A DNA stretch of 64,000 nucleotides from Bacteroidetes Order II. bacterium (GTDB taxonomy: Bacteria; Bacteroidota; Rhodothermia; Rhodothermales; UBA2364): positions 310,001 to 374,000 of the forward strand of contig JAEUSQ010000039.1 in NCBI GenBank assembly GCA_016788705.1, in the 5' to 3' direction. Under the pieces are notes generated by a model that saw only the letters and a list, made by a program, of their open reading frames with translations, had not been told where the DNA came from and made no database searches. Positions 44,319-64,000 of the stretch are shown here, piece after piece (positions within the stretch are counted from its first letter, which is position 1; every line of letters starts with the position of its first letter). The translations under genes and the position numbers were made by a program.

Positions 44319-47300
44319 ATGGTGAAATCCACCCTCCGTCATTGGTCAGGACTTCTTTTTTTGGTATTTACCAGTCTTGCCTCCGGCATCCTCCCGACCT
44401 ATGGTCAGGGAACTGCTCGTATTACCATATCCGGCGTTCCTTCTGTTCTCCAAACGCCGTATTTAGCTGAGTTACAACGCGACTATCAGGCAGGGCGTTT
44501 CCCCGTTCAGTTTGTTTATAGTCATGCGTCGCGGCAACCTGGAACCTTCCGTTTCGCCTTATCTCTATCGCTTGATGGGCAGGAACTGGTTTCCGAGATT
44601 TCTCAGGAGGTTACTATTCGGCCTGGTGTTTACACCTATCGGACCTTTCGGGATGCACCGGAAATTTTATTCCCGGACCTTGCAAGTTTGATAAGAAAAT
44701 TACCATCCGATCTTCAAACCCGCATTAATCAAACCGGATTATTGCCAGAGGGCCGTTACGAATTGACCTTAGAGGCGCTTTCAACCGATCCAGAGCAATT
44801 TGTGGTTGCACCACCAGCTTCTGTTTTCTTTACGGTTTCGTTCCCAGAAGCACCCGTGCTGCTTTCCCCGTCCGATGAAGCCATTGTCTCGCAGGCCCAA
44901 CCCATTTTCACATGGCTACCCGTTTTGGGGCCCTCCCGCCAAACGATTGAATATCAGGTACGTTTAGTAGAAATTTTACCAGGACAAACCACCGATGAAG
45001 CGTTTCGGGGCAATCGCGCCCAACTTGAATCGGCCTTCCAACGAGGAACCACTTTTGTATATGGCCGAGATCTACTGCCTTTAGAAACGGGAAAACGTTA
45101 CGCATGGAATGTTAAGGCACGAACGGTTTCCGGTACGCCGATTGCCCAAGATGGCCAAAGTGAAATCTACACCTTTTCGTTTGGTGCTAGCGCTGCACCA
45201 GACGATTTGATCGCCCAATTACGACAAATTGTTTTAGAACCTGGACTGGCAACCCTGACGGGGCTAACCGATTTAATTGTAACAGATGAGGGAACGAACT
45301 GGCTGCTAAACGGGCCTGCCACCTTAAATCTAACAGCCCCCTCCTCTGAAGTGATAACCGTTAACATAGAAAACATTCGCCTCCAAAAAGGCTCATTAGA
45401 TGTTCCCGTTTTACAAGCAGGTTCGGTGACCGCACGCCCGGCGCCAGATTCCGGCTTCTTGAGGGGGGCTTCTGGCGGACTGGTAGAGGTGCGCCTTCTA
45501 CGTTGGGAATTCGGACGTGGGTTTATGGCCGAAGGCGCGCTCCGGCTCCCCAATGGCAACCTCACACCTGCGGTGGGTAGTCTGCGGTTTTCGCGGAGTG
45601 GATTTTCCGGTGAAATACTTGCCGAATCCGGTAACAGCCCCATTTTAACCTTAGGTAATCCAAGTCAGCAATTGATCCTTAACCGCATTCGCGCCCGATT
45701 TCCCGAAAGCCAGTTAAGCGGCTCTGGTCGCTTCAGTTTAAACGGAACCACTTGTTCGTTAGATGAAGTCTTGTTTACTGGCGGAATGCAAGATCTATTG
45801 CTTGATTGTGCCTTAAATCAAGCAATTCAGGCTGTCCCTGGGTCAGATTTGGTGCAATTACAACTAAATCGCCTTCAAGGTCGTCTCCGTGTTGACACAG
45901 GTACTGGCCGTATGACCCCTGAACTTACGGTAAATGGTCAATTCGCGATTCATGTTTCGGAAGGACGTTGTGCTGCGGGGTTGAACGCAGACCTTACAGA
46001 AAGCGGCTGGAGTATCCGAGACCTTTCGCCAACCTGTGATTTGCCTTCATTGCCACTAGGGTTGTTTGACCTCAGCTTGAGTAATTTGCGCATTCCATTT
46101 TTGGGCTTCGATACGGCGCGTAACCGTTGGGACTTTGCCATAGACATAGACGGGCAACTGACAGGTGGAATTTTAGGTAGAGTTCGACTTCCACGCATAG
46201 CTGGTATCAGGCTTACGCCAGAGGGTTTTTCGTTTCCCAGTACGGTTTTGACTGCTCCGGATTTGACTAATCTACCTGAATTAAATTTTGGTGCACTAAA
46301 AGGGCAATTGACGGCACTAAGAGTACCCGTTTTTACGCTCAATGCGTTTGATCTTACGTCTGCGGCGTGGCAGCCTGTGTTGATGGATTTTGCCTTCCGG
46401 CTGGCAGACGATCTCCCATTACCCGCATGTTTACAGACACCACGGTTTAATGTCCGCGATTTTCGGTTTACGAGTAGTTCATTTAGCATGGATCTGGGTA
46501 ACCTAACGCCATCCGGTTGTGAGCTACCGCTGGGAATTGCTACTTTGCGGGTAAATCAATTGGGGGGACAACTGGAAGCAGTTCTATCCGGTGGACGCCT
46601 TAGTGTCAGTCCCAATTTATCGCTCGGTGGGTCGCTAAGGTTCGGATCACCCTTCACCTGTGGCGGTGTCGAGGAAACCTTCTTGCCCGCAAACCTTGCT
46701 ATTGATCCGCTTGGAAGATTGGTGGGCAACATTGCAAACGTTATACCCACATGCCCCCTTAACTTTGGGTTTGGAAGTGGTAGTTTGCGTGCTGCAAACT
46801 TGATATTGGGCAATTTAGGAGGCACTCAAACCGCCCGTTTAGAAGCAAATACTGGATTAGACCTTAACCTATTTGGACAAAACAACATAAACGCCAATGG
46901 TTCATTCAGTTTAGACTTGATCACAGGACGGTTCTCTACCTATAATTTCAACCTCCTCTCTGGCCTTAATCTACCTTTCCCTTCATCGGAAAACCCATTT
47001 TTCACCTTCCGTTTAAGTAGCGGATTGAGCCTGAGCCAATCTGGTTTACGCATCACCGGAACCCATGCGATCCAAATTGGGGCAGACAACATCCCCGTCC
47101 GGTTTGACCGAGGGCTTTTTAACCTGAACTCGTTCCGATTTACCGAAGGTATTGCCCAAATTGGCGGATCGGGTTCGGCTTTTCAGTTGGTCTATCTATT
47201 AAACGAAGGCCGCTTCACCACGTTTTCGGCCTCGGCCACCCTACCGAGCCAAAACCTTTTTGCAATTCGGGTAGAATCTGTAAACCTCACGCCAAGCGGG

Positions 47301-50300
47301 CTTGCGTTTTCGGGTAATACAACCGGACAACTCCGGTTTGGGGGTGAGTCTTTTGGGACGGATCGGTTGCAGTTGCGTTTTACGGACTTTACACTCGGGA
47401 CGAGTCCCATAGCCGTTTCCCGTGGCCAACTCGGCTTTTTTGTGGACGGTAGCCAGATTGCAACGTTTGATGCAACTGGATTTCGTTTGGAACCGGGCGG
47501 ACTTTTGGCGGCTCTCCCCTTGCCAGCACAACTACCTTTGCCACGTACCGACTTGGCATTTTTGCGGCTTCGCACCTCCGAAGGTGCTCCATTGCTCATC
47601 GCCACCGAAGATTTAGGCGGTGGACGTTTACGATTATTTACGCGCCCCGGAAGTCCGATTCAATTGGTTTTGGCGGGATTAAATGATGGTGGCACGCCTC
47701 CTTCGATTGGCGCCTCCTTCGATCTGGTGGTGAACAATGGCGACTTTGCCGTGCAAGAAGTCCGCTCGTTTAATGTTGCCACCTCGGCAGAGGTAAACCG
47801 TGCCTTGTTCGGAAGTTCACCACTACAACTTACCCGTTTTGTGCTTGCGGGTGCTGGTTCAGGCTTAGCGCTTCATGCAGATGTACAAATGGCCTTGCCA
47901 TCCGATCTCTCTTCCGGTCCATTGGTGGTTCGGAATTTGCGCCTAAGTGAACGGGGGTTCGAGGAAGCAGACGTTTCTGCCACGATCAACCTTCCCGACC
48001 GAACAACAGGTACGCTTCGTGGTCGTCTCTCGGCCAATGGCACGGGTTTAAGTGGCTTTTTGGGATTAGAACAGGCTTTTACCCTTGGTAGCAACCCGCT
48101 TCAGGTGGCTCTTTCCGGGTTACGGCTCCAGTTCCCATCTGTTCAGCTTACGGGAAGCGGCGCACTTACGCTGTTTGGCGGACGGCAAGCATGTAGCATC
48201 ACCGATTTGGTGGTGGGCGGTACAGGAGGAATGAGTACCATTGATTGTCGGATAGACGAAGCCATTCCATTGGTTCCGGGTAGCGCCCTTGCTACGTTAA
48301 ATCTTGGGAGCATTACGGGACGATTGGGCTATGCGGGTGGAAGATTCACGCACGATCTTTTGTTCACTTCACAATTGGGTTTACAAGTGAGCAATGGTCC
48401 TCGGTGTGGAACAAATCTTAACCTTCGCTTTACCCACACCTCTGGTCTTACCGCCTCCGAGTTCCGACCCGATTGCTCCGAGACACCACGTCTGAACTTG
48501 GGGGCATTGGAGGCACTTATGGCCAATTTGCGTGTCCCTTCTTTGGAATTTAACCCAACCACAGGGCGCTTCGACTTTGAAATCCAAACCGACCTGCAAT
48601 TGGCAGGCTCCCTATTGGGTACACAGGGATTACCAACCTTGCCCGGTATCCGAATTCGTCCTAATGGCATTACCTTCCCCGATGTCAACTTTAATTCCGC
48701 CCAACTATCGGGATTGCGTCCGTTTGACCTTGGGGGCATTCAAGCCCGTGTCAGCAGCTTCAGCATGCGTGGCTTCACCTTCGATTGGTTTGGCCGCCCC
48801 CCCGACTCGCCCGGTAATTGGGATGCCCAAGTGGGACTTAACATCGGGCTGGGCAATATCTCCGAGGTTCCTCGCTGTTTACAAACCACTTCTTTCCCGC
48901 TTAGCCTTAATATATCTGGTAGCCGCTTAAGTGCCACCTTGCCTGTTCAGACGTTACGGGATTGTAGCTTGCCACTGGGGCCAGCCTCCTTAGAGCTGAC
49001 AGGCATTGGCGGTAGTTTCACCGCCGGATTTGAGTCAGGGCGATACAACTTTGCACCCATCTTTTCGCTCAATGGCAATCTGCGCCTCTCCGATGCCTTC
49101 ACCTGTACGGCTGCCACCACGATGCCACTCGGAACAGCCGCATTAAATCTCTTGCCAAATGGCTTGGTTTTAGGCAACGTAACCGCCAATATCCCAGAAA
49201 CCTGTTCTTTACAATTTGGCCCCTTCCAGGCATCCGCCGGACGGACCACGCTCTCCTTGGGCCGCTCCGGAGACAACCAAACCGCCACCTTAGATGGTAT
49301 CGCACGCCTCACCATTGGCGATAGCGCACCCTTCGATGGAACCTATAACCTCAATTTATTCACCGGACGACTCAACACCTATCGGTTTGCCCTGAGTGCC
49401 CCATTTGTCTTGGCCGTTCCGCCCGAAAGCCCCGTTTTCCGGTTCAATATCACATCTGGTGAACTCTCCGAAGATGGACTTAACATCAATGGAATCAACA
49501 CTTTAGATGTTGGTGGTTCTCAGATTCGGACTACATTCGATAATGTCGGGCTGAATCTCTCCACATTGGCCATCGAGAACGGCCAAATACAGATTGAGGC
49601 CGGGATGGGCTTAGAGGCCGGGATTGGTTCTGGTGGTTCTCTCCGGTTCAATGCCGTCAATGCCACCCAACCGCCTGCTGCCAATCCGGGACTTATGTTG
49701 CGTCTTGGTTCTACGATTACCATAGACCGAACAGGGCTGAGCCTTGGTGGACGCGGTTCGGCTGCCCTCAATTACCGACCAGAAGGCGGCGAAACCCTCA
49801 ACCTGCCCCGTTTAGAGGTGGACTTTGGTTCTGGTTTTTCTTTCAACTTCAGCCCCTTTGCTATTGGGTCGGGCCGCGCCAATCTTTTGGACGGAACCAC
49901 CATTATGGGGTATATAGACCGTTCCGGCCTTCAAGTTAACCCCGGATATGTGGTCAGCCGTTTATTACCGGAACGCTTGCCCCTGCCTTCCGAAACCGTT
50001 GCATATTTACAATTGCGCAGAGGTGGAACACCTTTGGTTGAGACCACAACCGAGCCGGGTGGTCGGGTAAGATTGGCCATTAGACGTGGCGAAACGGTCA
50101 ATTTGGTCTTTCCGGCAATGGCACGCGGTGGCCGCACGCCGGAAGTTCCGGTCACATTTACCGATGTAGTCTTTGATCCGGCTTTGATGCAAATTACGGG
50201 TGGTAGTATCTCGGCGGATGTTTCTGGATTAACCGATTTCATCCTCCCCGATCAATTTCCGTTACAACTGCGCAACATATTGTATGGTGAACGGACGATA

Positions 50301-53300
50301 TCGGGACGAACCGTGCGCGGGCTTTTCCTGACGGGCAATCTGCGGATGCTGGCCCAAAATTGGAGTGGAGACTGCCCAGCGGCCTTCCAAGTATTAGAAA
50401 CCGGACGACTCTCTGGAAACCTCGCCTGTACAGGCATCAACCAAAACATCCCCCTTCCCGGTGTTGATAATTTTGCCTCACTTCGCATAACAGGTGTAAA
50501 TGGCTCGTTAGATTTGGCGCTGCCGGGTGTAGCGACGGGTGGAACAACGGTTAATTTTGGCTTAGATGGCCAGATCAACTTGAATAGTAGCGGGCGCGAA
50601 ATGGGCCGTTTAGGGTTTACGGCCAGCCTAAACAACGGTGTCTTCACCCTTAACACCACTGCCGATGGAAACCAACCCGGTGGATTGCCCCGATTGGACT
50701 TTGGCGCTTTTGGGATGGGCATTACCCATTTGCGAGACCTGAGCCTAAGCATAAGTGGTGGCGCTTTACGATTTGGACTCGGTGCAGACCTCGACTTCCG
50801 CGTAAGAATGCCGGACGGCACCTTTGTCACGATTCCGGCCAATGGCGCATATTTTGGAACCGATGGATTCCGCCTGCCTTCCATCCAATTAGCCGGACGC
50901 ACCTTGGCAGACTTGGGTATTGCTCCGATTACACTTGGCCCCATACAAATCCAACCTACGCAAATTCGGATACCTTCGCTCAACCTGAGCGGCCTTACAG
51001 CACTTGGTACAGACCTGCTTGCACAACTCATTCCTTCTTTCGACCTCAACTTCCGAATGCCCTCTGTTTCGGGACTTTCCCGCGACCTCGCCACAACCGA
51101 TATTTCCTTCAACAATGTCACCTTCCGTAATGGTATTTTTACTGGGACTTTAGGTGGCTTCGATTTACCCGGAAGCGGCTTGGTGGTTCCTTTCGGGACG
51201 GATGCGGGTCTTCGGGTTCGGCAAATAACCGCTCGCTTCTTCGATGATACTGGACGACAAGGCGTAGATGTGCGTTTCAATGGCGGTTTACAATTCCCAT
51301 CCGCTTTTGGGGATACCCGCTCTTGCTCTGCCACGCTCTCGGCGGCACTCTCTTCAACTGGCGATATTGCGGCTACGGCTTCGGGCATTGCTCCTTGTGG
51401 CAGCCTCACCTTTGGCCCGCTCAGTTTACGGTTCACACGCTCAGACTTGGCCCTGACGCTCGGTAGCACAACCGCTGCCACCTTAGACGGAACCGCCGAG
51501 GCCACCTTGCGCACGCCCGATGGACAAGTTTTGAACGCAACGGGGGATTTGGGGATTAACCTTGTAAACGGAAGCCTGACCCGAAGCAACATCCTCTTAA
51601 ACGGCCCCTTTGTTTGGCAAATTCCTTCCGATCGTGCCTTGCTTTCCTTTACCATAAACAGCGCACGGCTCAATACAACCGGACTCACCTTCGACGGAGC
51701 CGGACAATTGGATGTGCCCGGTGCGCCTGTGGGGGTTCGGTTTAATGCCGCACAATTTGGTTTTGATGGCCGGATGAACGGTGGAAGCGTGACCTTTAAT
51801 GCAGGGTTTGGCTTCGACATTCCTTTAGGCGAGGGAACCAATTGGCGATTGGTGGCCGCCAATGCAGCAGATGCGGCAGGTAATTTCTTCCGCCTTAATT
51901 TGCCAACGGGTCTTAGCCTTGATCCAACTGGATTATTGGTAAATGGCACGGCTTCCGCCCGGATCAATTACGGAACCCAACGGTTTACAGAAGGCCAACT
52001 AAGTCTTAACTTTGCGGGCTTCCGGCTCGGCTTTACGCCTTTTGGCGTAAACGATGGGCGGGTGGATTTAAACGCCCAGGATGGTGGCAGGACTGTTCGC
52101 ATTGCCTACTTCGACCGAGATGGTTTCCACCCCGATAACCTCTTGGCCGCACTTCCACTTCCGGCACGGCTCCCCCTTCCAGATGCACAACTCGCGTATT
52201 TACAACTCCGTGACTCCGGTGGCGCTTTGCTCATCGAAACAGCAGACGAGGGCGGCGGTCGGATGGCTGTCAGAACCCGTCCGGGCGCACCCATCAATTT
52301 TGTCATTCCGGCGCTTCGGGGTGCCAGTCCTTCCGATCCAACCCTACCTGTACAATTTGAATTTGTACTCAATACAGGGGATTTCACCGTTCGCGAAGTG
52401 CGGAGTTTTGTAGCCAATGGCGCACCCGTTTTAAATGCCGCACTATTCGGAGCCGGAAGCCCCATCGCTCTCCAACGGTTCGACCTGACAGGTAATGGAG
52501 CCGGTTTGGCACTCTTGGCCGACCTGAACATCACCCTTCCTACTGCCGTTTCTGCGGATCCACTCTCGTTACGGGGCATTCGCATCAGCCAACGTGGATT
52601 TGAAGAAGCCACCATCAATACCACCCTCAACATGCCCGGAGGCGGTGGTCCTGCCAATGTGACGGGTTTATTGAGGGGTGGCCTAGGTGGACTAACGGGA
52701 GAACTTCTGGCGCGTGCCGATGGTGTCCGGCCTATCCTCCGCATTGGGTCTCAACCCATTGAGGCTGCCCTTACGGAATTACGCATACAATTCCCCGATG
52801 TACGCATTTCTGGAAATGGCGGGGTTTCCCTCATGAATGGGACACCCACATGCGCCATCAACAACTTCACCCTTTCCGGCGAAACCAACAACCTCAACTT
52901 CTCCTGTTCGCTCGGTCAACGCCTTCAGCTGGTTCCGGGGAGTCCCTTGGCCACGCTTGGCGTTGCCTCCCTTTCCGGCGACCTCACGTTTAACGCCCGC
53001 ACCAGCGCCTTTGGGTATAACCTAAATGCCTCCGGAGACTTGGCCATGCAGGTAGAAGGCATGGCGGCTTGTGGGGCATCATTAGACCTAAGCATCTCCA
53101 ATACCTCCGGTTTTTCGGCGCGAAACGTCCGCCCCAACTGTAGCGGAACCCCTCAATTAAATCTGGGCTTCCTAAACATGGGTTTCCGTAACCTACACCT
53201 GCCCACCCTCACCTTTAACCCCATTTCGGGGCGGTTCTCGTTTGAACTTGCGATGGATGCCAACCTCACCGTCCCAACCTTCAACAACCTACAATTTCCC

Positions 53301-56300
53301 CAGCTACCCATCCGACTTACCGAATCTGGTATCCGATTTAATCCCTTTAATTATAACGAAACCGATTTATCCGGTTTGGGTGGGTTTAATCTCGGATTTG
53401 CCCAGGCACGTATAACAGGGCTTCGTTTGGCCACGCCCTTTACCTTCAACTGGTTTGCACACGACAGCAATACTGCTGGAAACTGGGATTTTGCCTTCGA
53501 CCTGCGCATGAATTTGCCAAGTGGTCCAGAATTTCCGGCCTGCCTCCAAACCTCGGCCATTAACCTGAACAATTTACGGTTCTCCGGTGCGGGTGTCAGT
53601 TTCAACTCTGCCATTTCAGCCATCGGAAGCGGCGGCTGTAACATCCCCATGGGGCCAGCCACCTTGAACGTCACCGAACTGAGCGCGCAACTTAGTGGCA
53701 GTTTTAACAACCGCTCCTTTAATCTTGCACCAATAGTTCAGGTTGCCGGTGGTATCAACCTTGGTGCACCCTTTACTTGTTCAGGACCTCCTTCGCCTCT
53801 AAGTTTGGGGACCACCCGCCTGAGTATTGGCCCGGGCGGCCTGATCCGAGGACGTGTAGAAAATCTTGCCCCCTCCTGTCCGCTCCAATTTGGTACCTAT
53901 GCCGCATCCGTAAGCCGCGCAAACCTAATTTTCGACGTTATGGGTGGTCGTCAGAATGTATTGTTTGATGGTGGTGCATCGTTAACGTTTGCCCCAGGCC
54001 AATCAGTAAGCGGAACGTTTGAATTAGACGTAACCAATGCACGATTCAATCGCTATTCCTTCAACTTAGACAATCCATTCGATTGGGCCGTACCTGCCAC
54101 CAATCCCGTTTTCACCTTCCGCATCAATCGCGCACGGTTAGACCAAGATGGATTGCTGATTGACGGGCGCAACAACCTACGGTTTGGCGATGGCGCACAA
54201 CTGGGTGTCACGTTTGATCAGTTTTTATTCAATTTAGACAACGCCTCGATCTCCTCCGGAAGCATCACGTTTGATACCGCCTTTTCACTTCAAGCAGGTA
54301 TTAACGAGACCACAAATCAACTTGCTTTCTCTGCGGCTGCGCTCAATGCACCCCTAACGCTAAGTCCGGGTGCGATGTTAAAACTGACCGGAGCCATCCG
54401 AATAGACCGTACCGGATTGGGCGTAGCGGGTAGCACCGATGCCGCACTACGTTACCGAGATTGGAACTTAACAGGTCTCGGTCTAACGTACTCCAGCGAT
54501 TTCCGACTGGCATTTAGTCCATTTGGCATAACTGCCGGAAACATGACCATCAACCATAACGGCTCGCGGGTAGCGACCATTTCTTCTACCGGAATTGCGA
54601 TTGACCCCGCTTTTGTCCTTTCGGTTTTGCCAGATCGTTTGCCCGTTCCACATGTAGATGTTGCTTATTTAGAACTTCGGCGTAGTGGCCGCTTGATAGT
54701 GGACATGACAACACTCCCCAGTGGCAACCTCCGTATCAACACCCAACCCGGACAAACCGTAAACATGGTGATTCCGGCCTTGCGCGGTTCTGGTTCGGCT
54801 CCTTCCTTGGCGGTCACCTTTAGTAATTTCGAAATTGACCCACGTGACTTTCGGGTCGTAGGGGGTTATTTCTCGGTTCGGACTGCCGATGTTTCGCGAA
54901 TCATTTTGCCCGCCAACTTCCCGCTCCAACTCACAGAAATCGGGTATGGGATCCAAAATTATGAAGGTTCGCCCTTGGCAGCCCTTTTCCTAACGGGTAC
55001 GGTTCGGCTCTTCGAGAACAATGTTCCGGCATGTAACCTCACCACGTATATCCAAATGGATGGACGACTACGTGGGAATGCGGGTTGTAGGGGAATGGAT
55101 GCCAATATACCCTTGGTTGGTTCCTCTAACTTGGCATCGTTGCAAATCAGAGAGGTTCTGGGAAGCATTGATGTACCTTTAACAGGCGGTTCTCCCAGTT
55201 TTTCTTTAGATGTAAACGCCGGATTTCGTATCCGTACCCGAGACGAAGTGGGTGCGCCAATTGCCGCCGAGTTGGATGTGCAAGCCCAACTAAGTGAAAC
55301 CGGCTTCCGGCTTACAGGTTCTATGCCTCGGGCTTTGTCCTCGCCTCCAACCATAGACATGGGCATTATGGCGATGGGCATTAACCGGATTTCGAGCCTT
55401 ACGATGGCCTATGCCGCCGGACGTTTCTCCTTCCGAGCGGGTTTGGACATTCGGATGCGCTTTGGCTTAGAAGAAGGACGGCGCGTAGAATTGCCGTCGT
55501 ATAACATCGAAATATCGGATGCAGGACTTCATTTTGCCGCGATAGACCTGCATAGTGGCTCCACGCCTCCGCTAAACTTAGATCCTTTTGCGCTCGGCCC
55601 CGTTGCGATAGACCTCTTGGCCTTCCGTATGTCGCCGATGACCGTGGACTTTTTCTCGGGACGATTCTCTGGTTTTAACCCCCGCTTCGACCTCGAAATC
55701 ACCTTACCCGGCTTCCGTGCTACGGCTCCAGAATTGGCAAATGCTCGTATTACGCTCAATAATGCCGGACTACAAGAGGGTAACTTGGTCGGAACCATCG
55801 TTCCTTATATTCCAGACGGTGGTCTCCTACGCATTCCAATGGGTGGTAGCGTGCGGATAAATGTTACCCGAATTGAGGGTAGCCTCCTGAATAACAGCGG
55901 CACACAAGGCTTCAACTTCCAACTAACCACCGAATTAGAATACCCCAACCTAAGCGGTTCCGGTCCGGCCTGTAGAAATCCCATCAATCTTGGCTTTAAT
56001 GGCACCACCTTTACGGCAAATGCCAGCCTTGCCCCATGTGGCTCCCTGAACTTCGATCCTGTAACCCTCCGGTTTACTTCTGCAAACTTGGATTTGGCGT
56101 TTGGCGCAACCCCGCGCGCCGAGTTCCGAGGTAGCGCTGAAGCCTCCATCCGCCGCGACGGAATGGGACCGGCTACTGCAACCGGAACACTTGGCCTAAA
56201 CCTGCTGACAGGCGAGGTTTTTGATGCCAATATCTCCGTAACGGGGCCTTTTACGTGGTCTTTGCCCTCCCGTGAGCCTGTCTTTTCCTTTACCGTCAAT

Positions 56301-59300
56301 AGCGCCAGCCTAAACCAAGATGGCATCACGTTTAATGGCGCGGGCAACTTGCGGGTCGGTACGGGTTCTATTGGAGTGAGTTTTAACAATCCGCACTTCC
56401 GCTTCCGAGACATGGCGCTTACAAGTGGGAACATCACCTTGGATGCCGCGATTGCCTTCGATATTGGACTTGGCGGCGGTAGCTCGGCCTTCCAGTTGGT
56501 GTCTCCTGCCACACCTGTGCCTTCGGGTAATTTCTTCCGGCTCGGCCTGCCCAGTAGTCTGCGATTGGATGCAACGGGCATGACGATTAGTGGAGCAGCA
56601 ACCGCACAACTCCGCTTCGGGACCCGTCCAGAAGACTTCTATAACAGTCTGAGCCTCAACTTTGTAGGCTTCACCATGAACTACGCGCCCGTTTCCGTAA
56701 CGGATGGCCGGGCCGACATTATGCTTGCTACGGGCGGAACGACCACCCGCTTGGCGTACTTCGACCGTGATGGTTTTCATCCTGACAACATCGCTGGTAT
56801 CTTGCCCATTCCGGCACGTCTTGGCTTGCCGAACCAAGACGTGGCCTACCTGCAATTGCGTTCCGGCCCCTCCAATTCCGACCCATTGCTGATCCAAACA
56901 CAGGATATGGGAAGCGGACGACTCCGCATTTACACCCGTCCAGCGCAACCCATTCAGGTGGTTTTTGCCGGATTTTCGGGCGCTCCAAGTGCGGGCGTAG
57001 AATTAGATATGACCCTCAACACGTCCGATTTCTCGGTGGTGAGTGTTGGCACGTTTAATGTCACCATTACCGAACAACTCAACCAAGCCTTGTTTGGCAA
57101 CTTCCCTGTTGCTATTACGGCACTTGGATTTAGCGGTTCTGGTTCTGGCTTGGTCTTCCAAGCAAGCGCCCGCATCAACCTACCGGAAAGCCTCTCGCGG
57201 TTGCCCTTGAACGTGGAAAACCTGCGAATTACTTCTTCGGGGTTTGAAAGTGCCACAGTACGAATTGGAACGTACTCCGCCAGTTATCAACCAGGCTGCG
57301 AAAGTACACCCGTCCAGCAAGCAAGTTTCAGCGACGGCGCAGTTGTTATTGCCGCTTGTGGTATCGAAATGGTCTTGGGTTCTTCCGGTATTTCCGCACT
57401 CCGGTTTAGTGGCCAATTGGGTGGAACCTTCCTCCAAAACAATGCGGGTGCGGCCACAAGAATGCACCTAACAGGCGAAGTGGCCAGTGGAAACTGGAGT
57501 TTTGTGGCTTCTGGATCGCATTTACCTTCGTCTCGGATTAACCTCGGCTTCGCCACCCTCGAACCGACGCGCTTAGCCCTAACCGCCAATGCCACCGAGT
57601 TTGCCGTAACCTTTGATGGAACCTTCCGGCTTCCCAGTATCGGAACCGATTTTGCCATCTCTGTAACAGGGCTTAAAGTAGGAACAACTGGTGTTAGCAT
57701 CACTTCTGCCGTCATGACCACGCCACAAACGTTCAATCTATTCAACAACTCGTTGGTCATGAACGTAAACCGCCTGGCACTACTGGGGCCAAGTGGTGGT
57801 TCGCCATTCCGTGTTCAAATGAGTGGCGCGATGAACTTTATGGGGCAAACGGGCATCAGTTTCACCGATTTCACCATTGGTACGGATGGATCCGTATCAT
57901 TGGGTAGCGGAGACGTGAATTTCTTGGCTGGTCGTCCGATCAACATCATAGACCAAGTATTTGTCCTAAGCGAGTTGCGATTGGGGTACGTTTCTGGTTC
58001 CTTCACCTTGCGGGCTAATGGAAACGTGACCCTTCCCGCGCCCATGTCCGCGTCTTCTGCCGTCTCGGTGGCGATGACCGTTAACCCCACAACCGGAGCC
58101 GTTACGATCCCTCCAACCACCGTTTCCTTTACGTTAGATGCCACCGGACGACGGAATGGTAGCCCACTTGAGCTTACCCTCGGCAGTTTTGCCACCATCG
58201 AACCAACGGGTGTTCAACTCACCATAGATTGGCAACGACCCGCACAAACCACCTTCTATGCTTCGGGTAATGTGTATGTGCAAAACGACAATGCCAAGAT
58301 CATCGAATTTGGACGACCCACCGACCTTACTAACCAGTATGGCATCCGCGTAACGTTTGGCGGAAGCGTGAACTGGCAATTGACCAACACCCCTTCTTTT
58401 ACTTTCGATACCGACTTCTTTTCCATCCAGATTGGGGCTTCGATGCCCACCACATCTGGCGGCTGGCAACTGGTGATCAACGGCGTGGCAGGACTCAAAA
58501 TTCCGGGAGTGGGTGGGGCAAAAGTTGGTTTTGCGGATCTGACCATTGATCGAACAGGCATTGTAAACCCCGGACGATTTACGGGCGAATTTGAAGCCCA
58601 ACTCATGGGAATTGCGACCCTAAGACTCGGTTCGTTCACCAATGGGACAGGCAATCTAACGTACAGTTGCGAAGGCCCAGGTTCTACACCACAAAATCCA
58701 GTTGTACAAGATTGCACCGTGGACACCCAATCCTACATGCTCTTCAATGGGGTACAACTCTCGCTTGGAAGCACCTTTAGCGGCGGCGTAGATCAAGTGA
58801 TGTACTACATTCCACGTGCAGGCGGCATTTATTTGCGGATCAAAAACTTTAATGTCAGTTTGAATGGTGTGGGGAGCCTGACGGCTCATATGGAGTTCAC
58901 CCAATCCAACGGCGATTTTCTCCTACGGGCAGCAGGCGGTGGAACCATTACGAGTCTCGGTGGCAGTGGCGGTGTTGGATTTGCTTTTATGGGTAAATTT
59001 GCCAACAAAGGCGGTCAACTTAGTTTTGGAATGTTTGCCTATATCAGTGTTCCCATTCCACTTTACCCCGGTATTGTTACGCTCACAGGTGTGGGAGCCG
59101 GCTTCTTCTATCGTCCTGAAAACGAAGACATCCGCATTGTCACCAATATCATCAACTTCACCCCGATGCGCCCGCTCCCATCGGTCGAGGGCATGACCTT
59201 TGCCATGTTGCTCGCCGCCGATGCCGGATTCGTCGGTACGCATCCCGTATATGCGGTTTCCGTTCGCACCTTGTTTATGTTTGCCGCAGGTGGGCCGGGA

Positions 59301-62300
59301 GGCGCTTGGGCCATCTCCATCAATGCACGTGGAACGGTTTTTGGTCAATCACAGGAGCGGCTTAATATTGGCTTTTTCCTGAACTTAGAGTATTCCCCAA
59401 CCCGCTTCTCTATGGCGGGAGGCGTAGAGGTGGTGGTTAATTATCCGAGTATCGTGACTGGGCGTGCTGAAGTGAACTTTAGCGTGATCAAGGCTGGAAG
59501 TGCCGAAACCGTATGGGCCATTAATGGTAGTATCAATGACTTCCGTATCATTTCTATCATCACCGTAAATGGACGATTTGTTGTCACCAACAATGGCTTC
59601 CTATTCGACCTCTCTGCACGCGGCGGTTTTAACTTCTGGATCGTAGCCGTGAACACCAGTTTTGATCTCTCCGTCTGGTGGAACAAACCGCGTGATGCCT
59701 TTGGAGCATATGTCCGCATGGGAATCGAAGCCTCGGTTCTGGGGGGGCTTGCTTCCCTGAGTGCCAGTGCAGAAGGTGCCTTTATTCGAGAAGGCCCTAA
59801 TTACCTGATTTATGCCGCCGCAAGTGGACGCGTGAAGGTCATTTTTGTATTTGAAGGCACGATCCGACTCTGGATTGCCTGCCGAAATGGGTCGTGGGAT
59901 GGTGGCATGGGTTCCGACGAACGGTATCGCCAGATGATAGAGGATGCCCGTAACCAAGCCGCCGAAATGGAGCAAGCTGCCGATGAAGCCGCAGGTGCCC
60001 TCCAACAAGCCCAAAATGCCCCACAGGTCTTTGCCCTTTCCGAAGCAGAGCTAACTGCCGCAGGCTCTCTCCTACAATCCTACCCACAATCGTGGCGTGC
60101 GGCTTTTGCAACCTATGCCGTCAACCGAGAGCGCGACTTCTATAATGTGGTGAACACAACCTTCCCCGGAACCAATCTGGCATTCCCGACGGTATATCAA
60201 CAAGTGGTGGACAATGTGATTGAAGCAAACCGCGCTACCGCCTCTCTTTCTGCCAGCCGTACCCAGATGACCATAAACCTGGGTCGTGTGACGGCTCAGG
60301 CACCTGCCGTCATTACCCGCCTTCAAGGTGCGGTATCCGAAGCCATCGAATGGGAAAATGAAGTCAATGAATTGGATGTGGCTTTGCGTAATCCGATTCA
60401 AAACCTACGTGCCAACTGGTCTGGCGACACGCCACCTAACTTTGATATTGACCAAAGCGCCGAAGACCAAAATGCCCAACGAATGAACGATTTCCGGGCC
60501 GCAGTCGCTGCTCTGGACCAACAATACCAAGAATCCATCGCTGCTGTTACCGCCAATATCAACAAAATTGATGATGTCATGCGGGGCCAAACCTCTGTGG
60601 ATATACAAGCCGTAGCACCAGCCGTAACATGGCGTTCATCGGCCACCAACAAGCAATATAGTGGCATGACGATTGGCAGTTCTTTGGGATACTCCACCAT
60701 GCTGGGCGTCCCAAAAGCAACCCAACCAAACCGCTCTGTTCAGGAAATCAGCCGTGTTTTCCGCGATGCCATGGAATCCGTTCATGCCTTCCATAGCCGA
60801 TACATCTCGTACTCATGGGAAATGATGGATGTATATCGGCGGCGCCTCAATGCCTTAAACAGCATCAGTACGAATGTGGAAAGTGCGATTAATAATGTGA
60901 TGAATACAGCAGTAAACATTCGAATTTTTACCTTTAATTTTTCCGGCCCGTTAAGGCTTATTGCCACCAATCCCATTTTTAACCAAACCCAGTTTAATGC
61001 ACTCAATACCGGAAGCCGTGAATTGGCGTATCAACGTCGTTTACAAATCCTAAAATTATTGTACAAGAACGAAAGTGGTGGCGATACCCGCGCATTAAAC
61101 GAAGCCAATACCTTCCGAACAAGTTTAGACAACAATAATTTGATGTTGAACTTAGAGAATGTTGGCCGAGAAATGTGGGTAACCATGCACCGAAATGGCT
61201 TAAATGAACGCATCAATGCGGTACCAACCGAAGTTGCTGAAAAATTATCCGACTTCAACACCGGATTAACCAACCTCAGAACCCGCTATAACGAATTCTC
61301 TTCGGCCATAGATGAACTCTATGCCGTAAAAGCACGCATGATGACCACCCTCTTTGGAATGTTGGACGAATACATCAACTGGAGAACAACCGTTTTGCGC
61401 ACTACCGACAACACGACTTGGCAAACCCAACGTGCTAATTTTGCCCGACTCATGGAACCACCGGTTATTACAGGGATTTCCTTCTCCTCCAACAAGCCTA
61501 CCGGACAATATTTTAATGACCTTACCTTCACTTGGTCGGCAGCACACCCCAATGGCGTGGCCGAATATGCCTATGCCATAGACAATGCGGGAGGAAATAC
61601 GATTCTTACAGATGAAGCCTTTGTGTCTGTAGGTACAGAAACCACACAACGCCATACGGTGGTAAAACGGAGCGACACAGAAAGCCAACGTACCATTGCC
61701 TTCCGACTGATGGCACGTGGGCCAGGCGGAAATACGGCCATACGCGGGGTTCAGGTACGGGTAAATGTAGGAACAGGAAGCACTTATTCCGGAAGTGGGA
61801 CAACACCGGGAGGAAGCGTCCTCTCTAATGACACGTCGGCACCTGCAATATGGTCTGTTAACCTGACCGATAAGGTACAGACCGAGTCCACCGAGACTTC
61901 ATACTTCTTGAACATAGATCCTATTTCAGGAAGGTCGTTTATGACACCTTATTCTACCACGATCCAACGGATTTGGGTGAATGAAACCGACCGGATTCCG
62001 GTAGATGTGGTGGCTTTAGACTTAGAGTCGGACATTCGTGACATTGAGTATGCCATCGGAACCTCTTCCGGCGGCACGCAAATACGAAACTGGGGAACCA
62101 TGCAAGGGGTTCGTACCCGTTTGGGGGACAATATCGCTACCAAAACCGAAGCCACCATCCGGGGTCTCAATTTGACCTCTGGCAATACCTATTATCTTTC
62201 CGTGCGGGCCGTAAATGGCCAAGGCTTGCGAAGCATTGTTACAACAAAAACCTTCACCGTGGACACAACAAAGCCGACCCGGCCACAAGCACCCTTTGCT

Positions 62301-63458
62301 GCCCGTGTAGAAGGCGGCCTAATCGGTGGTTTCACGCCCCCGCCTCCTACGAATTATGCCCCGATCGGAGCCAATGCAGCCGTTGTTTATGCTTCGCCGC
62401 TAACCAATACCCAGCCCAGCATTGCTACACCATCCTATCCCCTCAACTGGCAAGCCTCCACCGACCCCGCAGCGCCTGGAGCATTGGCTTCCGGTTTACA
62501 GTTCTACCGCTACATCCTAAGTACCAACCGCGATGCAACCGAGGCATCCCTTGCCACACCAGAGGATCAAGTGCGAACCACCACATCGCTTACCGCAGTT
62601 TTGAATAGTGGCCCTCTCACTTTTGTAAATCCATTTTATGCACACATTTGGGCGGTGGACAATGCAGGCAATAATGGTGATGCCCTGACTATCGGGCCTT
62701 TTAGCGCCCCCGACCCATCCGCACCCACCATTCCCATTGTGCGTGCCAAACTTGGAACCAAAGCGGTTTACGTCACCCAAAAATCCGAAGACGCAGAATC
62801 GGGCTTACGTGGTTACCAATTTGCCGTCGGAACCACGCTCGGAAGCACCAACCTCCGTGCTTTCCGAACAGATAACCAACCAGACCTCATCATAAACGAG
62901 GCTCCGCGTTATACACCACCAGGATCAGGCACGACCTTTGCCTTGGGCTACTTCCTCGGAATGAGCGATTCACCCCGTGCCATTACTGCCAATGACTTAT
63001 CGAATGGGGCGAATGTCTATGTACAAGTGCGTGCACTGAATGGGCAAAACATGAAGTCCGCAACGGTTTCCACAGGCCCATTCCGTATAGACACCACCCG
63101 CCCGCAAACGAGTGGCGTAACGGCCACATACAACCGTGATTCAGGAGACTATACCATTACCGTAAACAACATGAACGATGGCGAATCTGGAATTTCTTAT
63201 ATCGAGTATCGCATCGTAAACCCTATTAATGGTGCGGTATTACAAGACTGGACAGCTGGTGCTTGGTGGATAAGTCCATCCTTTGGAACCTTCTCGCGCA
63301 CCATTACCCGAAACCGAACCGCCGATCGCTCCCTCCTAAATGTGGATGTGATGGTAAGAATCGCAAACGGGGTAGGTTTAGAGACCGTCTCTACCGTGCG
63401 CGTCCCCATACCCCAACCCCCAACCTATTATTTTCCACCGGTGGTCTATAGATTTTAA
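44319..63458 (+). CDS. Giant 6379-residue exported protein of alternating long beta-rich units
   Basis: One uninterrupted frame of 19.1 kb. I start at ATG 44319 (MVKSTLRHWSGLLFL...ILPTYGQ, a signal peptide); the TTG two codons upstream is weaker. Residues about 30-300: two beta-sandwich domains of a type common in Bacteroidota surface proteins (VTIRPGVYTYR, LLSPSDEAIVSQAQPIFTW, GKRYAWNVKAR). Residues about 300-4330: long units, each ending in a signature like LPLPxxxLAYLQLR at residues 1072, 1887, 2618, 3441 and 4168. Long units carry four Cys pairs and short units two. About 4330-5190: further beta-rich sequence with aromatic-rich amphipathic strands. About 5199-5700: helical, coiled-coil-like. 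About 5711-6379: four Fn3/Ig-like modules (YAYAID, FAVGTT). No T9SS sorting domain is visible; the end is YYFPPVVYRF. I do not recognise the core. An adhesin, a fibre or an AsmA/TamB-like beta structure are possibilities only. Confidence 0.93.
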   Translation: MVKSTLRHWSGLLFLVFTSLASGILPTYGQGTARITISGVPSVLQTPYLAELQRDYQAGRFPVQFVYSHASRQPGTFRFALSLSLDGQELVSEISQEVTIRPGVYTYRTFRDAPEILFPDLASLIRKLPSDLQTRINQTGLLPEGRYELTLEALSTDPEQFVVAPPASVFFTVSFPEAPVLLSPSDEAIVSQAQPIFTWLPVLGPSRQTIEYQVRLVEILPGQTTDEAFRGNRAQLESAFQRGTTFVYGRDLLPLETGKRYAWNVKARTVSGTPIAQDGQSEIYTFSFGASAAPDDLIAQLRQIVLEPGLATLTGLTDLIVTDEGTNWLLNGPATLNLTAPSSEVITVNIENIRLQKGSLDVPVLQAGSVTARPAPDSGFLRGASGGLVEVRLLRWEFGRGFMAEGALRLPNGNLTPAVGSLRFSRSGFSGEILAESGNSPILTLGNPSQQLILNRIRARFPESQLSGSGRFSLNGTTCSLDEVLFTGGMQDLLLDCALNQAIQAVPGSDLVQLQLNRLQGRLRVDTGTGRMTPELTVNGQFAIHVSEGRCAAGLNADLTESGWSIRDLSPTCDLPSLPLGLFDLSLSNLRIPFLGFDTARNRWDFAIDIDGQLTGGILGRVRLPRIAGIRLTPEGFSFPSTVLTAPDLTNLPELNFGALKGQLTALRVPVFTLNAFDLTSAAWQPVLMDFAFRLADDLPLPACLQTPRFNVRDFRFTSSSFSMDLGNLTPSGCELPLGIATLRVNQLGGQLEAVLSGGRLSVSPNLSLGGSLRFGSPFTCGGVEETFLPANLAIDPLGRLVGNIANVIPTCPLNFGFGSGSLRAANLILGNLGGTQTARLEANTGLDLNLFGQNNINANGSFSLDLITGRFSTYNFNLLSGLNLPFPSSENPFFTFRLSSGLSLSQSGLRITGTHAIQIGADNIPVRFDRGLFNLNSFRFTEGIAQIGGSGSAFQLVYLLNEGRFTTFSASATLPSQNLFAIRVESVNLTPSGLAFSGNTTGQLRFGGESFGTDRLQLRFTDFTLGTSPIAVSRGQLGFFVDGSQIATFDATGFRLEPGGLLAALPLPAQLPLPRTDLAFLRLRTSEGAPLLIATEDLGGGRLRLFTRPGSPIQLVLAGLNDGGTPPSIGASFDLVVNNGDFAVQEVRSFNVATSAEVNRALFGSSPLQLTRFVLAGAGSGLALHADVQMALPSDLSSGPLVVRNLRLSERGFEEADVSATINLPDRTTGTLRGRLSANGTGLSGFLGLEQAFTLGSNPLQVALSGLRLQFPSVQLTGSGALTLFGGRQACSITDLVVGGTGGMSTIDCRIDEAIPLVPGSALATLNLGSITGRLGYAGGRFTHDLLFTSQLGLQVSNGPRCGTNLNLRFTHTSGLTASEFRPDCSETPRLNLGALEALMANLRVPSLEFNPTTGRFDFEIQTDLQLAGSLLGTQGLPTLPGIRIRPNGITFPDVNFNSAQLSGLRPFDLGGIQARVSSFSMRGFTFDWFGRPPDSPGNWDAQVGLNIGLGNISEVPRCLQTTSFPLSLNISGSRLSATLPVQTLRDCSLPLGPASLELTGIGGSFTAGFESGRYNFAPIFSLNGNLRLSDAFTCTAATTMPLGTAALNLLPNGLVLGNVTANIPETCSLQFGPFQASAGRTTLSLGRSGDNQTATLDGIARLTIGDSAPFDGTYNLNLFTGRLNTYRFALSAPFVLAVPPESPVFRFNITSGELSEDGLNINGINTLDVGGSQIRTTFDNVGLNLSTLAIENGQIQIEAGMGLEAGIGSGGSLRFNAVNATQPPAANPGLMLRLGSTITIDRTGLSLGGRGSAALNYRPEGGETLNLPRLEVDFGSGFSFNFSPFAIGSGRANLLDGTTIMGYIDRSGLQVNPGYVVSRLLPERLPLPSETVAYLQLRRGGTPLVETTTEPGGRVRLAIRRGETVNLVFPAMARGGRTPEVPVTFTDVVFDPALMQITGGSISADVSGLTDFILPDQFPLQLRNILYGERTISGRTVRGLFLTGNLRMLAQNWSGDCPAAFQVLETGRLSGNLACTGINQNIPLPGVDNFASLRITGVNGSLDLALPGVATGGTTVNFGLDGQINLNSSGREMGRLGFTASLNNGVFTLNTTADGNQPGGLPRLDFGAFGMGITHLRDLSLSISGGALRFGLGADLDFRVRMPDGTFVTIPANGAYFGTDGFRLPSIQLAGRTLADLGIAPITLGPIQIQPTQIRIPSLNLSGLTALGTDLLAQLIPSFDLNFRMPSVSGLSRDLATTDISFNNVTFRNGIFTGTLGGFDLPGSGLVVPFGTDAGLRVRQITARFFDDTGRQGVDVRFNGGLQFPSAFGDTRSCSATLSAALSSTGDIAATASGIAPCGSLTFGPLSLRFTRSDLALTLGSTTAATLDGTAEATLRTPDGQVLNATGDLGINLVNGSLTRSNILLNGPFVWQIPSDRALLSFTINSARLNTTGLTFDGAGQLDVPGAPVGVRFNAAQFGFDGRMNGGSVTFNAGFGFDIPLGEGTNWRLVAANAADAAGNFFRLNLPTGLSLDPTGLLVNGTASARINYGTQRFTEGQLSLNFAGFRLGFTPFGVNDGRVDLNAQDGGRTVRIAYFDRDGFHPDNLLAALPLPARLPLPDAQLAYLQLRDSGGALLIETADEGGGRMAVRTRPGAPINFVIPALRGASPSDPTLPVQFEFVLNTGDFTVREVRSFVANGAPVLNAALFGAGSPIALQRFDLTGNGAGLALLADLNITLPTAVSADPLSLRGIRISQRGFEEATINTTLNMPGGGGPANVTGLLRGGLGGLTGELLARADGVRPILRIGSQPIEAALTELRIQFPDVRISGNGGVSLMNGTPTCAINNFTLSGETNNLNFSCSLGQRLQLVPGSPLATLGVASLSGDLTFNARTSAFGYNLNASGDLAMQVEGMAACGASLDLSISNTSGFSARNVRPNCSGTPQLNLGFLNMGFRNLHLPTLTFNPISGRFSFELAMDANLTVPTFNNLQFPQLPIRLTESGIRFNPFNYNETDLSGLGGFNLGFAQARITGLRLATPFTFNWFAHDSNTAGNWDFAFDLRMNLPSGPEFPACLQTSAINLNNLRFSGAGVSFNSAISAIGSGGCNIPMGPATLNVTELSAQLSGSFNNRSFNLAPIVQVAGGINLGAPFTCSGPPSPLSLGTTRLSIGPGGLIRGRVENLAPSCPLQFGTYAASVSRANLIFDVMGGRQNVLFDGGASLTFAPGQSVSGTFELDVTNARFNRYSFNLDNPFDWAVPATNPVFTFRINRARLDQDGLLIDGRNNLRFGDGAQLGVTFDQFLFNLDNASISSGSITFDTAFSLQAGINETTNQLAFSAAALNAPLTLSPGAMLKLTGAIRIDRTGLGVAGSTDAALRYRDWNLTGLGLTYSSDFRLAFSPFGITAGNMTINHNGSRVATISSTGIAIDPAFVLSVLPDRLPVPHVDVAYLELRRSGRLIVDMTTLPSGNLRINTQPGQTVNMVIPALRGSGSAPSLAVTFSNFEIDPRDFRVVGGYFSVRTADVSRIILPANFPLQLTEIGYGIQNYEGSPLAALFLTGTVRLFENNVPACNLTTYIQMDGRLRGNAGCRGMDANIPLVGSSNLASLQIREVLGSIDVPLTGGSPSFSLDVNAGFRIRTRDEVGAPIAAELDVQAQLSETGFRLTGSMPRALSSPPTIDMGIMAMGINRISSLTMAYAAGRFSFRAGLDIRMRFGLEEGRRVELPSYNIEISDAGLHFAAIDLHSGSTPPLNLDPFALGPVAIDLLAFRMSPMTVDFFSGRFSGFNPRFDLEITLPGFRATAPELANARITLNNAGLQEGNLVGTIVPYIPDGGLLRIPMGGSVRINVTRIEGSLLNNSGTQGFNFQLTTELEYPNLSGSGPACRNPINLGFNGTTFTANASLAPCGSLNFDPVTLRFTSANLDLAFGATPRAEFRGSAEASIRRDGMGPATATGTLGLNLLTGEVFDANISVTGPFTWSLPSREPVFSFTVNSASLNQDGITFNGAGNLRVGTGSIGVSFNNPHFRFRDMALTSGNITLDAAIAFDIGLGGGSSAFQLVSPATPVPSGNFFRLGLPSSLRLDATGMTISGAATAQLRFGTRPEDFYNSLSLNFVGFTMNYAPVSVTDGRADIMLATGGTTTRLAYFDRDGFHPDNIAGILPIPARLGLPNQDVAYLQLRSGPSNSDPLLIQTQDMGSGRLRIYTRPAQPIQVVFAGFSGAPSAGVELDMTLNTSDFSVVSVGTFNVTITEQLNQALFGNFPVAITALGFSGSGSGLVFQASARINLPESLSRLPLNVENLRITSSGFESATVRIGTYSASYQPGCESTPVQQASFSDGAVVIAACGIEMVLGSSGISALRFSGQLGGTFLQNNAGAATRMHLTGEVASGNWSFVASGSHLPSSRINLGFATLEPTRLALTANATEFAVTFDGTFRLPSIGTDFAISVTGLKVGTTGVSITSAVMTTPQTFNLFNNSLVMNVNRLALLGPSGGSPFRVQMSGAMNFMGQTGISFTDFTIGTDGSVSLGSGDVNFLAGRPINIIDQVFVLSELRLGYVSGSFTLRANGNVTLPAPMSASSAVSVAMTVNPTTGAVTIPPTTVSFTLDATGRRNGSPLELTLGSFATIEPTGVQLTIDWQRPAQTTFYASGNVYVQNDNAKIIEFGRPTDLTNQYGIRVTFGGSVNWQLTNTPSFTFDTDFFSIQIGASMPTTSGGWQLVINGVAGLKIPGVGGAKVGFADLTIDRTGIVNPGRFTGEFEAQLMGIATLRLGSFTNGTGNLTYSCEGPGSTPQNPVVQDCTVDTQSYMLFNGVQLSLGSTFSGGVDQVMYYIPRAGGIYLRIKNFNVSLNGVGSLTAHMEFTQSNGDFLLRAAGGGTITSLGGSGGVGFAFMGKFANKGGQLSFGMFAYISVPIPLYPGIVTLTGVGAGFFYRPENEDIRIVTNIINFTPMRPLPSVEGMTFAMLLAADAGFVGTHPVYAVSVRTLFMFAAGGPGGAWAISINARGTVFGQSQERLNIGFFLNLEYSPTRFSMAGGVEVVVNYPSIVTGRAEVNFSVIKAGSAETVWAINGSINDFRIISIITVNGRFVVTNNGFLFDLSARGGFNFWIVAVNTSFDLSVWWNKPRDAFGAYVRMGIEASVLGGLASLSASAEGAFIREGPNYLIYAAASGRVKVIFVFEGTIRLWIACRNGSWDGGMGSDERYRQMIEDARNQAAEMEQAADEAAGALQQAQNAPQVFALSEAELTAAGSLLQSYPQSWRAAFATYAVNRERDFYNVVNTTFPGTNLAFPTVYQQVVDNVIEANRATASLSASRTQMTINLGRVTAQAPAVITRLQGAVSEAIEWENEVNELDVALRNPIQNLRANWSGDTPPNFDIDQSAEDQNAQRMNDFRAAVAALDQQYQESIAAVTANINKIDDVMRGQTSVDIQAVAPAVTWRSSATNKQYSGMTIGSSLGYSTMLGVPKATQPNRSVQEISRVFRDAMESVHAFHSRYISYSWEMMDVYRRRLNALNSISTNVESAINNVMNTAVNIRIFTFNFSGPLRLIATNPIFNQTQFNALNTGSRELAYQRRLQILKLLYKNESGGDTRALNEANTFRTSLDNNNLMLNLENVGREMWVTMHRNGLNERINAVPTEVAEKLSDFNTGLTNLRTRYNEFSSAIDELYAVKARMMTTLFGMLDEYINWRTTVLRTTDNTTWQTQRANFARLMEPPVITGISFSSNKPTGQYFNDLTFTWSAAHPNGVAEYAYAIDNAGGNTILTDEAFVSVGTETTQRHTVVKRSDTESQRTIAFRLMARGPGGNTAIRGVQVRVNVGTGSTYSGSGTTPGGSVLSNDTSAPAIWSVNLTDKVQTESTETSYFLNIDPISGRSFMTPYSTTIQRIWVNETDRIPVDVVALDLESDIRDIEYAIGTSSGGTQIRNWGTMQGVRTRLGDNIATKTEATIRGLNLTSGNTYYLSVRAVNGQGLRSIVTTKTFTVDTTKPTRPQAPFAARVEGGLIGGFTPPPPTNYAPIGANAAVVYASPLTNTQPSIATPSYPLNWQASTDPAAPGALASGLQFYRYILSTNRDATEASLATPEDQVRTTTSLTAVLNSGPLTFVNPFYAHIWAVDNAGNNGDALTIGPFSAPDPSAPTIPIVRAKLGTKAVYVTQKSEDAESGLRGYQFAVGTTLGSTNLRAFRTDNQPDLIINEAPRYTPPGSGTTFALGYFLGMSDSPRAITANDLSNGANVYVQVRALNGQNMKSATVSTGPFRIDTTRPQTSGVTATYNRDSGDYTITVNNMNDGESGISYIEYRIVNPINGAVLQDWTAGAWWISPSFGTFSRTITRNRTADRSLLNVDVMVRIANGVGLETVSTVRVPIPQPPTYYFPPVVYRF
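47532..56822 (+). repeat. Alternating long/short unit super-repeat inside the giant gene
   Basis: The five unit-end signatures begin at 47532, 49977, 52170, 54639 and 56820. Distances are 815, 731, 823 and 727 codons, so the pattern repeats every 1546-1554 codons (about 4.65 kb). Units 1072-1887 and 2618-3441 are long; 1887-2618 and 3441-4168 are short. A further long unit precedes the first signature and a partial one follows the last. Confidence 0.85.
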
Positions 63459-63520: not shown

Positions 63521-64000
63521 ATGATAGGAAATAAAAGTTTTTTTTGGCTATTGGGCTTATTTATCTTAATAAGTACAACAACCAACACCGTTTGGGCGCA
63601 AGACCCACAGGTCAGAACTTCGGTTAATGCAGATGGACGTGTCTTCATTTACGCAACACAGCCCCCAAAATCTGGACAGGGCTACCATTTTTATCGAAAA
63701 GAGGCCGCAGGAAATGAAGTCCGCCTGAACGGAGCAGAGCCGATTCGGGGTGTACAGTCAGGTATTGAACTCCGCGAGTTACTTGGCCAAGACTATAATT
63801 CGATCCGAGAAACCCTTGGCGAAGATGACCCTACGGCCATGTTATTTCGGTTAAAATCAGATCGAATTAGTGGGAATTTATATGCCTTCTCGTATCCCAC
63901 CGTCGCCATTGCATTGGGACAATTGTGGGTGGATTCTACGGCTACAATGGGACAAACGGTAACGTATCGCCTTGAAACGCTCAATTTATCCAATAAACCC
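63521..64000 (+). CDS. Exported protein, 5' part only (3' end outside window)
   Basis: 160 codons are visible from ATG 63521, 62 bases after the giant gene, and probably co-transcribed with it. The signal peptide MIGNKSFFWLLGLFILISTTTNTVWAQ is followed by DPQVRTSVNADGRVFIYA and YHFYRKEAAGNEVRLNG, which read as a beta-sandwich (Fn3-like) protein. I recognise no family. Its position suggests it works with the giant protein, for example in its export or surface assembly, but nothing in the visible part shows this. Confidence 0.8.
   Translation, partial: MIGNKSFFWLLGLFILISTTTNTVWAQDPQVRTSVNADGRVFIYATQPPKSGQGYHFYRKEAAGNEVRLNGAEPIRGVQSGIELRELLGQDYNSIRETLGEDDPTAMLFRLKSDRISGNLYAFSYPTVAIALGQLWVDSTATMGQTVTYRLETLNLSNKP

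Follow-up and report, generated by a model that had tools for sequence, protein, structure and literature searches.

The window, a stretch of 64,000 nucleotides (G000:C39:310001-374000) from the 4.28-Mb genome of Bacteroidetes Order II. bacterium, encodes a 6,379-residue protein that is, judged by its domain order, a genus-level expansion of a standard one-pair layout of about 4,000 residues. It has the N, L, S and C1 regions in the one-pair order and an Fn3 gene downstream. By sequence comparison, this giant is an expanded, toxin-less branch probably related to the TANFOR proteins, with undescribed beta-units. The units L1, L2, S3 and S5 are supported by BLASTP between units, unit order and the unit tree. 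The parts of the gene and its two neighbours in the window are as follows.

44319-63458, +: whole giant gene from the ATG to the end of the stop codon, no internal stops, 6,379 aa, N-L-L-S-L-S-C1-helical-Fn3 (orthologues of 6,398 and 6,423 aa)
44319-44405, +: predicted Sec signal peptide, residues 1-29, ending in TYGQ before GTAR, read from the sequence
44406-44825, +: N1, putative divergent TANFOR-like domain, residues 30-169 (hhalign against TIGR02542-hit sequences)
44826-45206, +: N2, Ig/Fn3-like domain, residues 170-296, FxWxPV...YAWxVxAR (weak Ig/Fn3 matches)
45216-47573, +: unit L1, residues 300-1085
47532-47573, +: unit-end signature 1, residues 1072-1085
47574-50018, +: unit L2, residues 1086-1900
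50019-52211, +: unit S3, residues 1901-2631
52212-54680, +: unit L4, residues 2632-3454, predicted continuous amphipathic beta-meander with 8 conserved Cys
54681-56861, +: unit S5, residues 3455-4181
49977-50018, 52170-52211, 54639-54680 and 56820-56861, +: unit-end signatures 2-5
56862-60008, +: C1, conserved beta-core, residues 4182-5230, the best-conserved region
58704-59885, +: C1b, residues 4796-5189, 22 predicted strands with one hydrophobic face, barrel- or groove-like
60009-62018, +: helical region, residues 5231-5900 (helices predicted from about residue 5201)
62019-63455, +: Ig/Fn3-like tail, residues 5901-6379, in which no T9SS C-terminal domain or toxin domain was recognised
63521-64000, +: Fn3 partner gene, about 678 aa, running off the window and completed in L010, where it ends at 1557
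34574-43900, -: tandem-95 protein, 3,108 aa (NF012211), with a T9SS type A tail (TIGR04183, E 8e-10)

Two classes of long units and their history

Five unit-end signatures start at residues 1072, 1887, 2618, 3441 and 4168, and their spacings of 815, 731, 823 and 727 residues are exactly those given in the original prediction. Text of the REVRSF / NVTITEQLNQALFG type follows signatures 1, 3 and 5, and text of the ILPxxFPLQL type follows signatures 2 and 4, as had been quoted there. In the AlphaFold prediction, the signature forms a strand-poor turn between units (model residues 899-960). When the units were cut at the signatures and compared by BLASTP, L2 and L4 showed 38% identity over 831 columns (E 2e-170), L1 was 33% identical to L4 (E 2e-85) and 32% identical to L2 (E 1e-79), and S3 and S5 shared 37% identity over 743 columns (E 2e-140). 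Every L-S pair was also aligned, with 26-28% identity over 528-844 columns (E 4e-20 to 9e-38). The homology reaches far past the signature and covers the whole length of the units, which excludes chance and rules out a resemblance confined to the signature, the outcome that the original prediction had warned of. A sixth copy of the start of an L unit opens the C1 region (residues 4182-4314); it is 46% identical to that of L2 (E 9e-31).

In a tree of 41 units, a 100/100 branch divides the L from the S units; one G160 unit ending at 1940 was scored as L, yet is second in order and groups with S. Two interleaved unit classes had been proposed for the giant, and by this tree L and S are paralogous classes of ancient origin. 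Within the genus, the three L units and the two S units cluster among themselves (support 84/66 to 98/90), indicating that the extra L and S units probably arose through duplication within its own lineage. On the tree, the L/S divergence is ancient and the expansion of units is younger. The giant also illustrates modular lengthening in steps of whole units of about 800 residues, drawn from two old classes, a scale that is unusual for the evolution of repeats.

Full-length orthologues were found in two congeners, one of them Bacteroidetes bacterium UBA2364. Their L4 units are 94% and 91% identical to that of the window, and the unit order in these two other assemblies is identical to that of the window giant. 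For the closest pair, the overall dN/dS was 0.064 at an unsaturated dS of 0.61, and that of C1 was 0.023, which indicates purifying selection. An assembly or frame artefact is ruled out by the low dN/dS and by the recurrence of this layout in two further assemblies. A more distant relative was found in Roseithermus sacchariphilus (order Rhodothermales).

The genome of the window carries a second gene of the family, which encodes 4,068 aa with one L and one S unit in the order N-L-S-C1-helical-Fn3, and relatives from other families have the same one-pair layout. From this distribution, the ancestral protein is a chain of about 4,000 aa with the order N-L-S-C1-helical-Fn3. The search for homologues suggested with the original prediction detected L units in 42 of the 245 Rhodothermia genomes and in other Bacteroidota; the N-L-S-C1 order is also present in genomes of other Bacteroidota classes (G251, G427, G445 and G471). 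The alternation of long units first described in the giant is real, but other members of the family share the L-S pair, which is standard in the one-pair layout across Rhodothermia and beyond. Among 245 genomes of the class and 335 of the phylum, as far as draft contigs allow, the L-L-S-L-S layout was confined to this genus. In the same genomes, no further ORF exceeded 4,527 aa, a count limited by the draft contigs.

The barrel, the Fn3 partner and the N-terminal module

The giant is not an isolated protein: the family belongs to a barrel-giant-Fn3 gene set, and the N-terminus of the giant is probably a distant relative of TANFOR. The one-pair loci contain, in order, a barrel gene of about 590 aa, the giant gene and a gene for an Fn3 protein of about 680 aa, often with a TPR protein next, and the barrel-giant-Fn3 order was observed in all one-pair Rhodothermia loci covered on both sides. 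The Fn3 domain of the window's partner was found in its full-length orthologue, and in a tree this partner is the sister of the paralogue's Fn3 partner (98/97). The set was not found in the literature searched, and a literature search on bacterial giant proteins with a beta-groove gave nothing on this L/S giant family.

The protein of about 590 aa has a signal peptide, a beta pattern and a C-terminal RF, and from these sequence features we infer that it is an outer-membrane beta-barrel. The barrels scanned matched no Pfam or NCBIfam family, PorP_SprF included. A profile of the barrel matched 166 of 394 Bacteroidota genomes, and a model of the N module matched 106 of the 394, with its matches outside Rhodothermia lying in large ORFs. 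Outside Rhodothermia, 71 of the 84 N matches had a barrel less than 20 kb away, in every case on the same strand, and 50 of the 84 had one within 3 kb. The N module was also fused to the barrel in six single ORFs of 863-1,027 aa, which hint more than anything else that the N module may act at the barrel:

L176:8639-11485, -: N-barrel fusion, 949 aa
L177:5303-7891, +: N-barrel fusion, 863 aa
L178:7690-10452, +: N-barrel fusion, 921 aa
L179:1126-3819, -: N-barrel fusion, 898 aa
L180:3518-6136, +: N-barrel fusion, 873 aa
L181:2324-5404, +: N-barrel fusion, 1,027 aa

In the contig stretches covered, no barrel gene lies beside the expanded giant, either in the window or in the flanks of the G001 and G002 orthologues. 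A solitary fourth barrel with no giant adjoining was detected elsewhere in the window's genome (L174:8866-10644, +, which is G000:C50:41976-43643) and is present in both congeners too. As a guess, this barrel is a candidate partner of the window giant in trans. Its placement in the barrel tree is unsettled, and we rejected it as a proven partner. A single stop was observed inside the barrel profile match in G001:C34:26013-27746, G365:C44, G471:C1 and G028:C10; these cases could reflect pseudogenes, edge effects or errors in the assemblies. In G002, a Phage_GPD/VgrG-like spike gene (L043:2-1561, -) lies immediately downstream of the one-pair set.

The tandem-95 neighbour (34574-43900) contains about 21 repeat stretches and HAF repeats, and it lies divergent to the giant. 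Similar divergent genes adjoin the set in G008 and G013 (L037 and L038).

At the N-terminus, the 140 or so residues that follow the signal peptide aligned with TANFOR stretches by hhalign with probability 84 and E 8e-6. TIGR02542 itself, with its 67-bit cut-off, matched neither the window protein nor its genome, none of 30 genomes gave a match above the cut-off, and a direct search found nothing in Rhodothermia. In other Bacteroidota, weak TIGR02542 matches and N-model matches fall in the same ORFs. On these alignments N1 is likely, though not proven, to be a distant relative of TANFOR. Jana et al. 2020 (PMC7073777) described TANFOR proteins as polymorphic toxins, guessed that they are exported by T9SS and reported Fn3 genes beside them; nowhere does the text of that paper use the word barrel. 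A barrel partner of TANFOR-related giants has apparently been undescribed so far. At one of the loci where TIGR02542 and N-model matches overlap, an N-module protein of 1,729 aa (L156:11916-17102, +) carries a colicin/pyocin DNase (PF21431, E 3.9e-41) as its C-terminal domain, and a gene of the barrel family lies about 600 bp downstream of it.

Predicted fold of the units

The original prediction did not recognise the core domain, and database searches bear this out. L, S and C1 were covered by no Pfam or NCBIfam match and gave no meaningful PDB sequence match with profiles of 17-19 rows, so a known repeat family, which the prediction had named as its other possible outcome, was rejected. The AlphaFold model proposed with it was run on residues 2532-3731 (35 sequences, pLDDT 77.9) and was a nearly all-beta amphipathic meander, but its pTM was 0.41 and no global fold match came out of it. 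The model of C1 (residues 4168-5290, 32 sequences) had a pLDDT of 76.6 and a pTM of 0.45. In C1b, most of the predicted strands have 12-14 residues, and helices follow them. The alternation of hydrophobic and polar strand faces in L and C1b exceeded that of all 2,000 shuffles. We read the L/S units and C1 of these models as one long amphipathic beta-meander. The L units have eight near-invariant cysteines, which fits an oxidising, extracytoplasmic location.

Foldseek found no global fold match for the L or C1 models. For C1, the likeness to LptD, ApoB100 and ushers was that of a meander only (TM-scores 0.12-0.17, rmsd above 20 A). The matches of the L4 model to DDB1 (TM 0.06) and ApoB100 (probability at most 0.6) were not meaningful, and tail-fibre matches of C1 in a viral library (TM 0.11-0.14) were not used. 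In the helical region, a WXG100-like match at about residues 5347-5391 was marginal (E 0.006) and below the cut-off.

Proposed role of the giant

We give about an even chance to the explanation that the giant is an exported envelope protein, probably a surface-displayed beta-rod, whose N domain is secured to a cognate barrel. It would be exported by Sec to the periplasm through its signal peptide, and would then pass to the surface, probably through the T9SS translocon and/or aided by its cognate barrel. A T9SS passage is made plausible by SprA, detected in 30 of 30 genomes tested (TIGR04189 match of 1,602 bits in the window's genome), and by the T9SS cargo that adjoins the giant. The N module would dock on the barrel, which would be its shuttle or anchor. 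The L/S units would make up a long amphipathic beta-rod or sheet, stabilised by disulfides, which holds the C1-helical-Fn3 end at a distance from the cell and whose length is set by the number of units, extra units lengthening the rod. In the window genus, an unlinked barrel, either the solitary one or that of the paralogue, may serve the giant in trans. Adhesion or contact would be the likelier role, because relatives of the set can end in a DNase toxin and the window giant does not.

We infer the surface location, barrel binding and function of the giant from several features. The signal peptide, the L-unit cysteines, the conserved N-L-S-C1 layout, the barrel linkage and the N-barrel fusions count for a barrel-docked rod, and further support is given by the N1-TANFOR match, the DNase relative beside a barrel, SprA, the amphipathic strands, the solitary barrel and the published parallel of T9SS type B cargo with cognate barrels. 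Counting against it, no T9SS C-terminal sorting domain of type A (TIGR04183) or type B (TIGR04131) was found in the giant with NCBIfam at E<=1, the barrel belongs to no family, no barrel lies beside the window giant, and the AlphaFold pTM reached just 0.41-0.45.

It is unlikely that the giant is instead a long surface adhesin or stalk which leaves by an ordinary route, namely T9SS with an unrecognised C-terminal domain, and that the barrel linkage reflects some other joint function of the neighbourhood. The Ig/Fn3 tail, the adjoining tandem-95 T9SS cargo, the T9SS in the genome and the missing barrel adjacency in this genus would all fit such an adhesin, whereas the barrels that share a strand with 71 of 84 N matches, together with the N-barrel fusions, argue for a direct relation between N module and barrel.

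A periplasmic or trans-envelope lipid conduit, with an AsmA/TamB/VPS13-like groove and the barrel as its outer-membrane end, appears quite improbable. The strand alternation beyond shuffles would suit a groove, and the best loose fold neighbours of C1, LptD and ApoB100, are lipid-handling beta-meanders; at such TM-scores and rmsd, however, only the meander is shared. The giant, which resembles AsmA/TamB/VPS13 proteins and ApoB100/LptD in its very long predicted amphipathic beta-meander, differs from them in having no sequence match (no AsmA, TamB or VPS13 family profile, Pfam included, matched it), no global fold match and no inner-membrane anchor, as no inner-membrane helix was seen in the sequence besides the signal peptide. 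Five units of about 800 residues, if extended, would also far exceed the periplasm, and a relative from the same gene set has a toxin at its C-terminus.

A polymorphic toxin with a toxin domain too divergent to be recognised, its activity lying in the helical/Fn3 end or in a protein encoded downstream, would account for the TANFOR relation of N1, the Fn3 neighbour of the kind noted by Jana et al. 2020 and the relative with a C-terminal DNase, but is very unlikely, as eight one-pair or expanded members contain nothing but Ig/Fn3 traces in their last 1,100 aa, the tail has homologues in G008, G013 and G002b and is thereby conserved rather than polymorphic, and no toxin domain was recognised in the C-terminus of the giant and no toxin or immunity gene downstream, where the gene is Fn3.

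The barrel-docked rod may be one case of something wider. We propose, tentatively and at somewhat less than an even chance, that the barrel, the N-module giant and the Fn3 protein form a dedicated export or surface-anchoring system of Bacteroidota, in which each cargo is directed to its own barrel by an N-terminal TANFOR/Fn3 module instead of a signal at the C-terminus. The cargo would range from DNase toxins to multi-unit beta-rods such as the window giant, and rod length would be tuned by duplicating whole L/S units. The exit route of TANFOR proteins was unknown in 2020, with T9SS as a guess, and the barrel, the Fn3 genes, the N-barrel fusions and L/S/C1 now provide testable components.

Three known systems resemble the set in part. 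Like TANFOR polymorphic toxins, the giant is a very large Bacteroidota protein with a Sec signal and an N-terminal TANFOR-like domain, it has an Fn3 gene (from 63521) and a T9SS substrate (34574-43900) as neighbours, and a relative from the same set ends in a DNase; unlike them, it has no TIGR02542 match and no recognised toxin or immunity protein, and it has L/S/C1 units. T9SS type B cargo has a cognate PorP/SprF barrel, usually the product of an adjacent gene, and orphan cargo proteins make common use of a distant barrel (PMC9143113, PMC12618676). The set resembles such cargo (SprB-SprF) in joining a giant exported protein to its own cognate barrel gene, and the window genus would resemble the orphans served by an unlinked barrel, a pairing that is a guess here. 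In contrast to type B cargo, the giant has no type A or B C-terminal domain, and the barrel, at about 590 aa, is not PorP_SprF by Pfam or NCBIfam. With CdiA/CdiB two-partner secretion, the set shares a beta-rich giant stick, an outer-membrane barrel and, in some relatives, a toxin tip. The predicted long antiparallel meander is unlike a known beta-helix repeat, and Pfam gave no match to a two-partner-secretion domain in the giant or the barrel, nor to POTRA/Omp85 in the barrel.

Two further giants of barrel-linked sets were observed in the window's genome, of 2,105 aa (L089:6052-12366, +) and about 3,700 aa (L090:8901-20000, +), and in neither could L/S units be recognised. Barrel-linked giants of a shorter class, of about 2,000 aa, are present in other genera as well.
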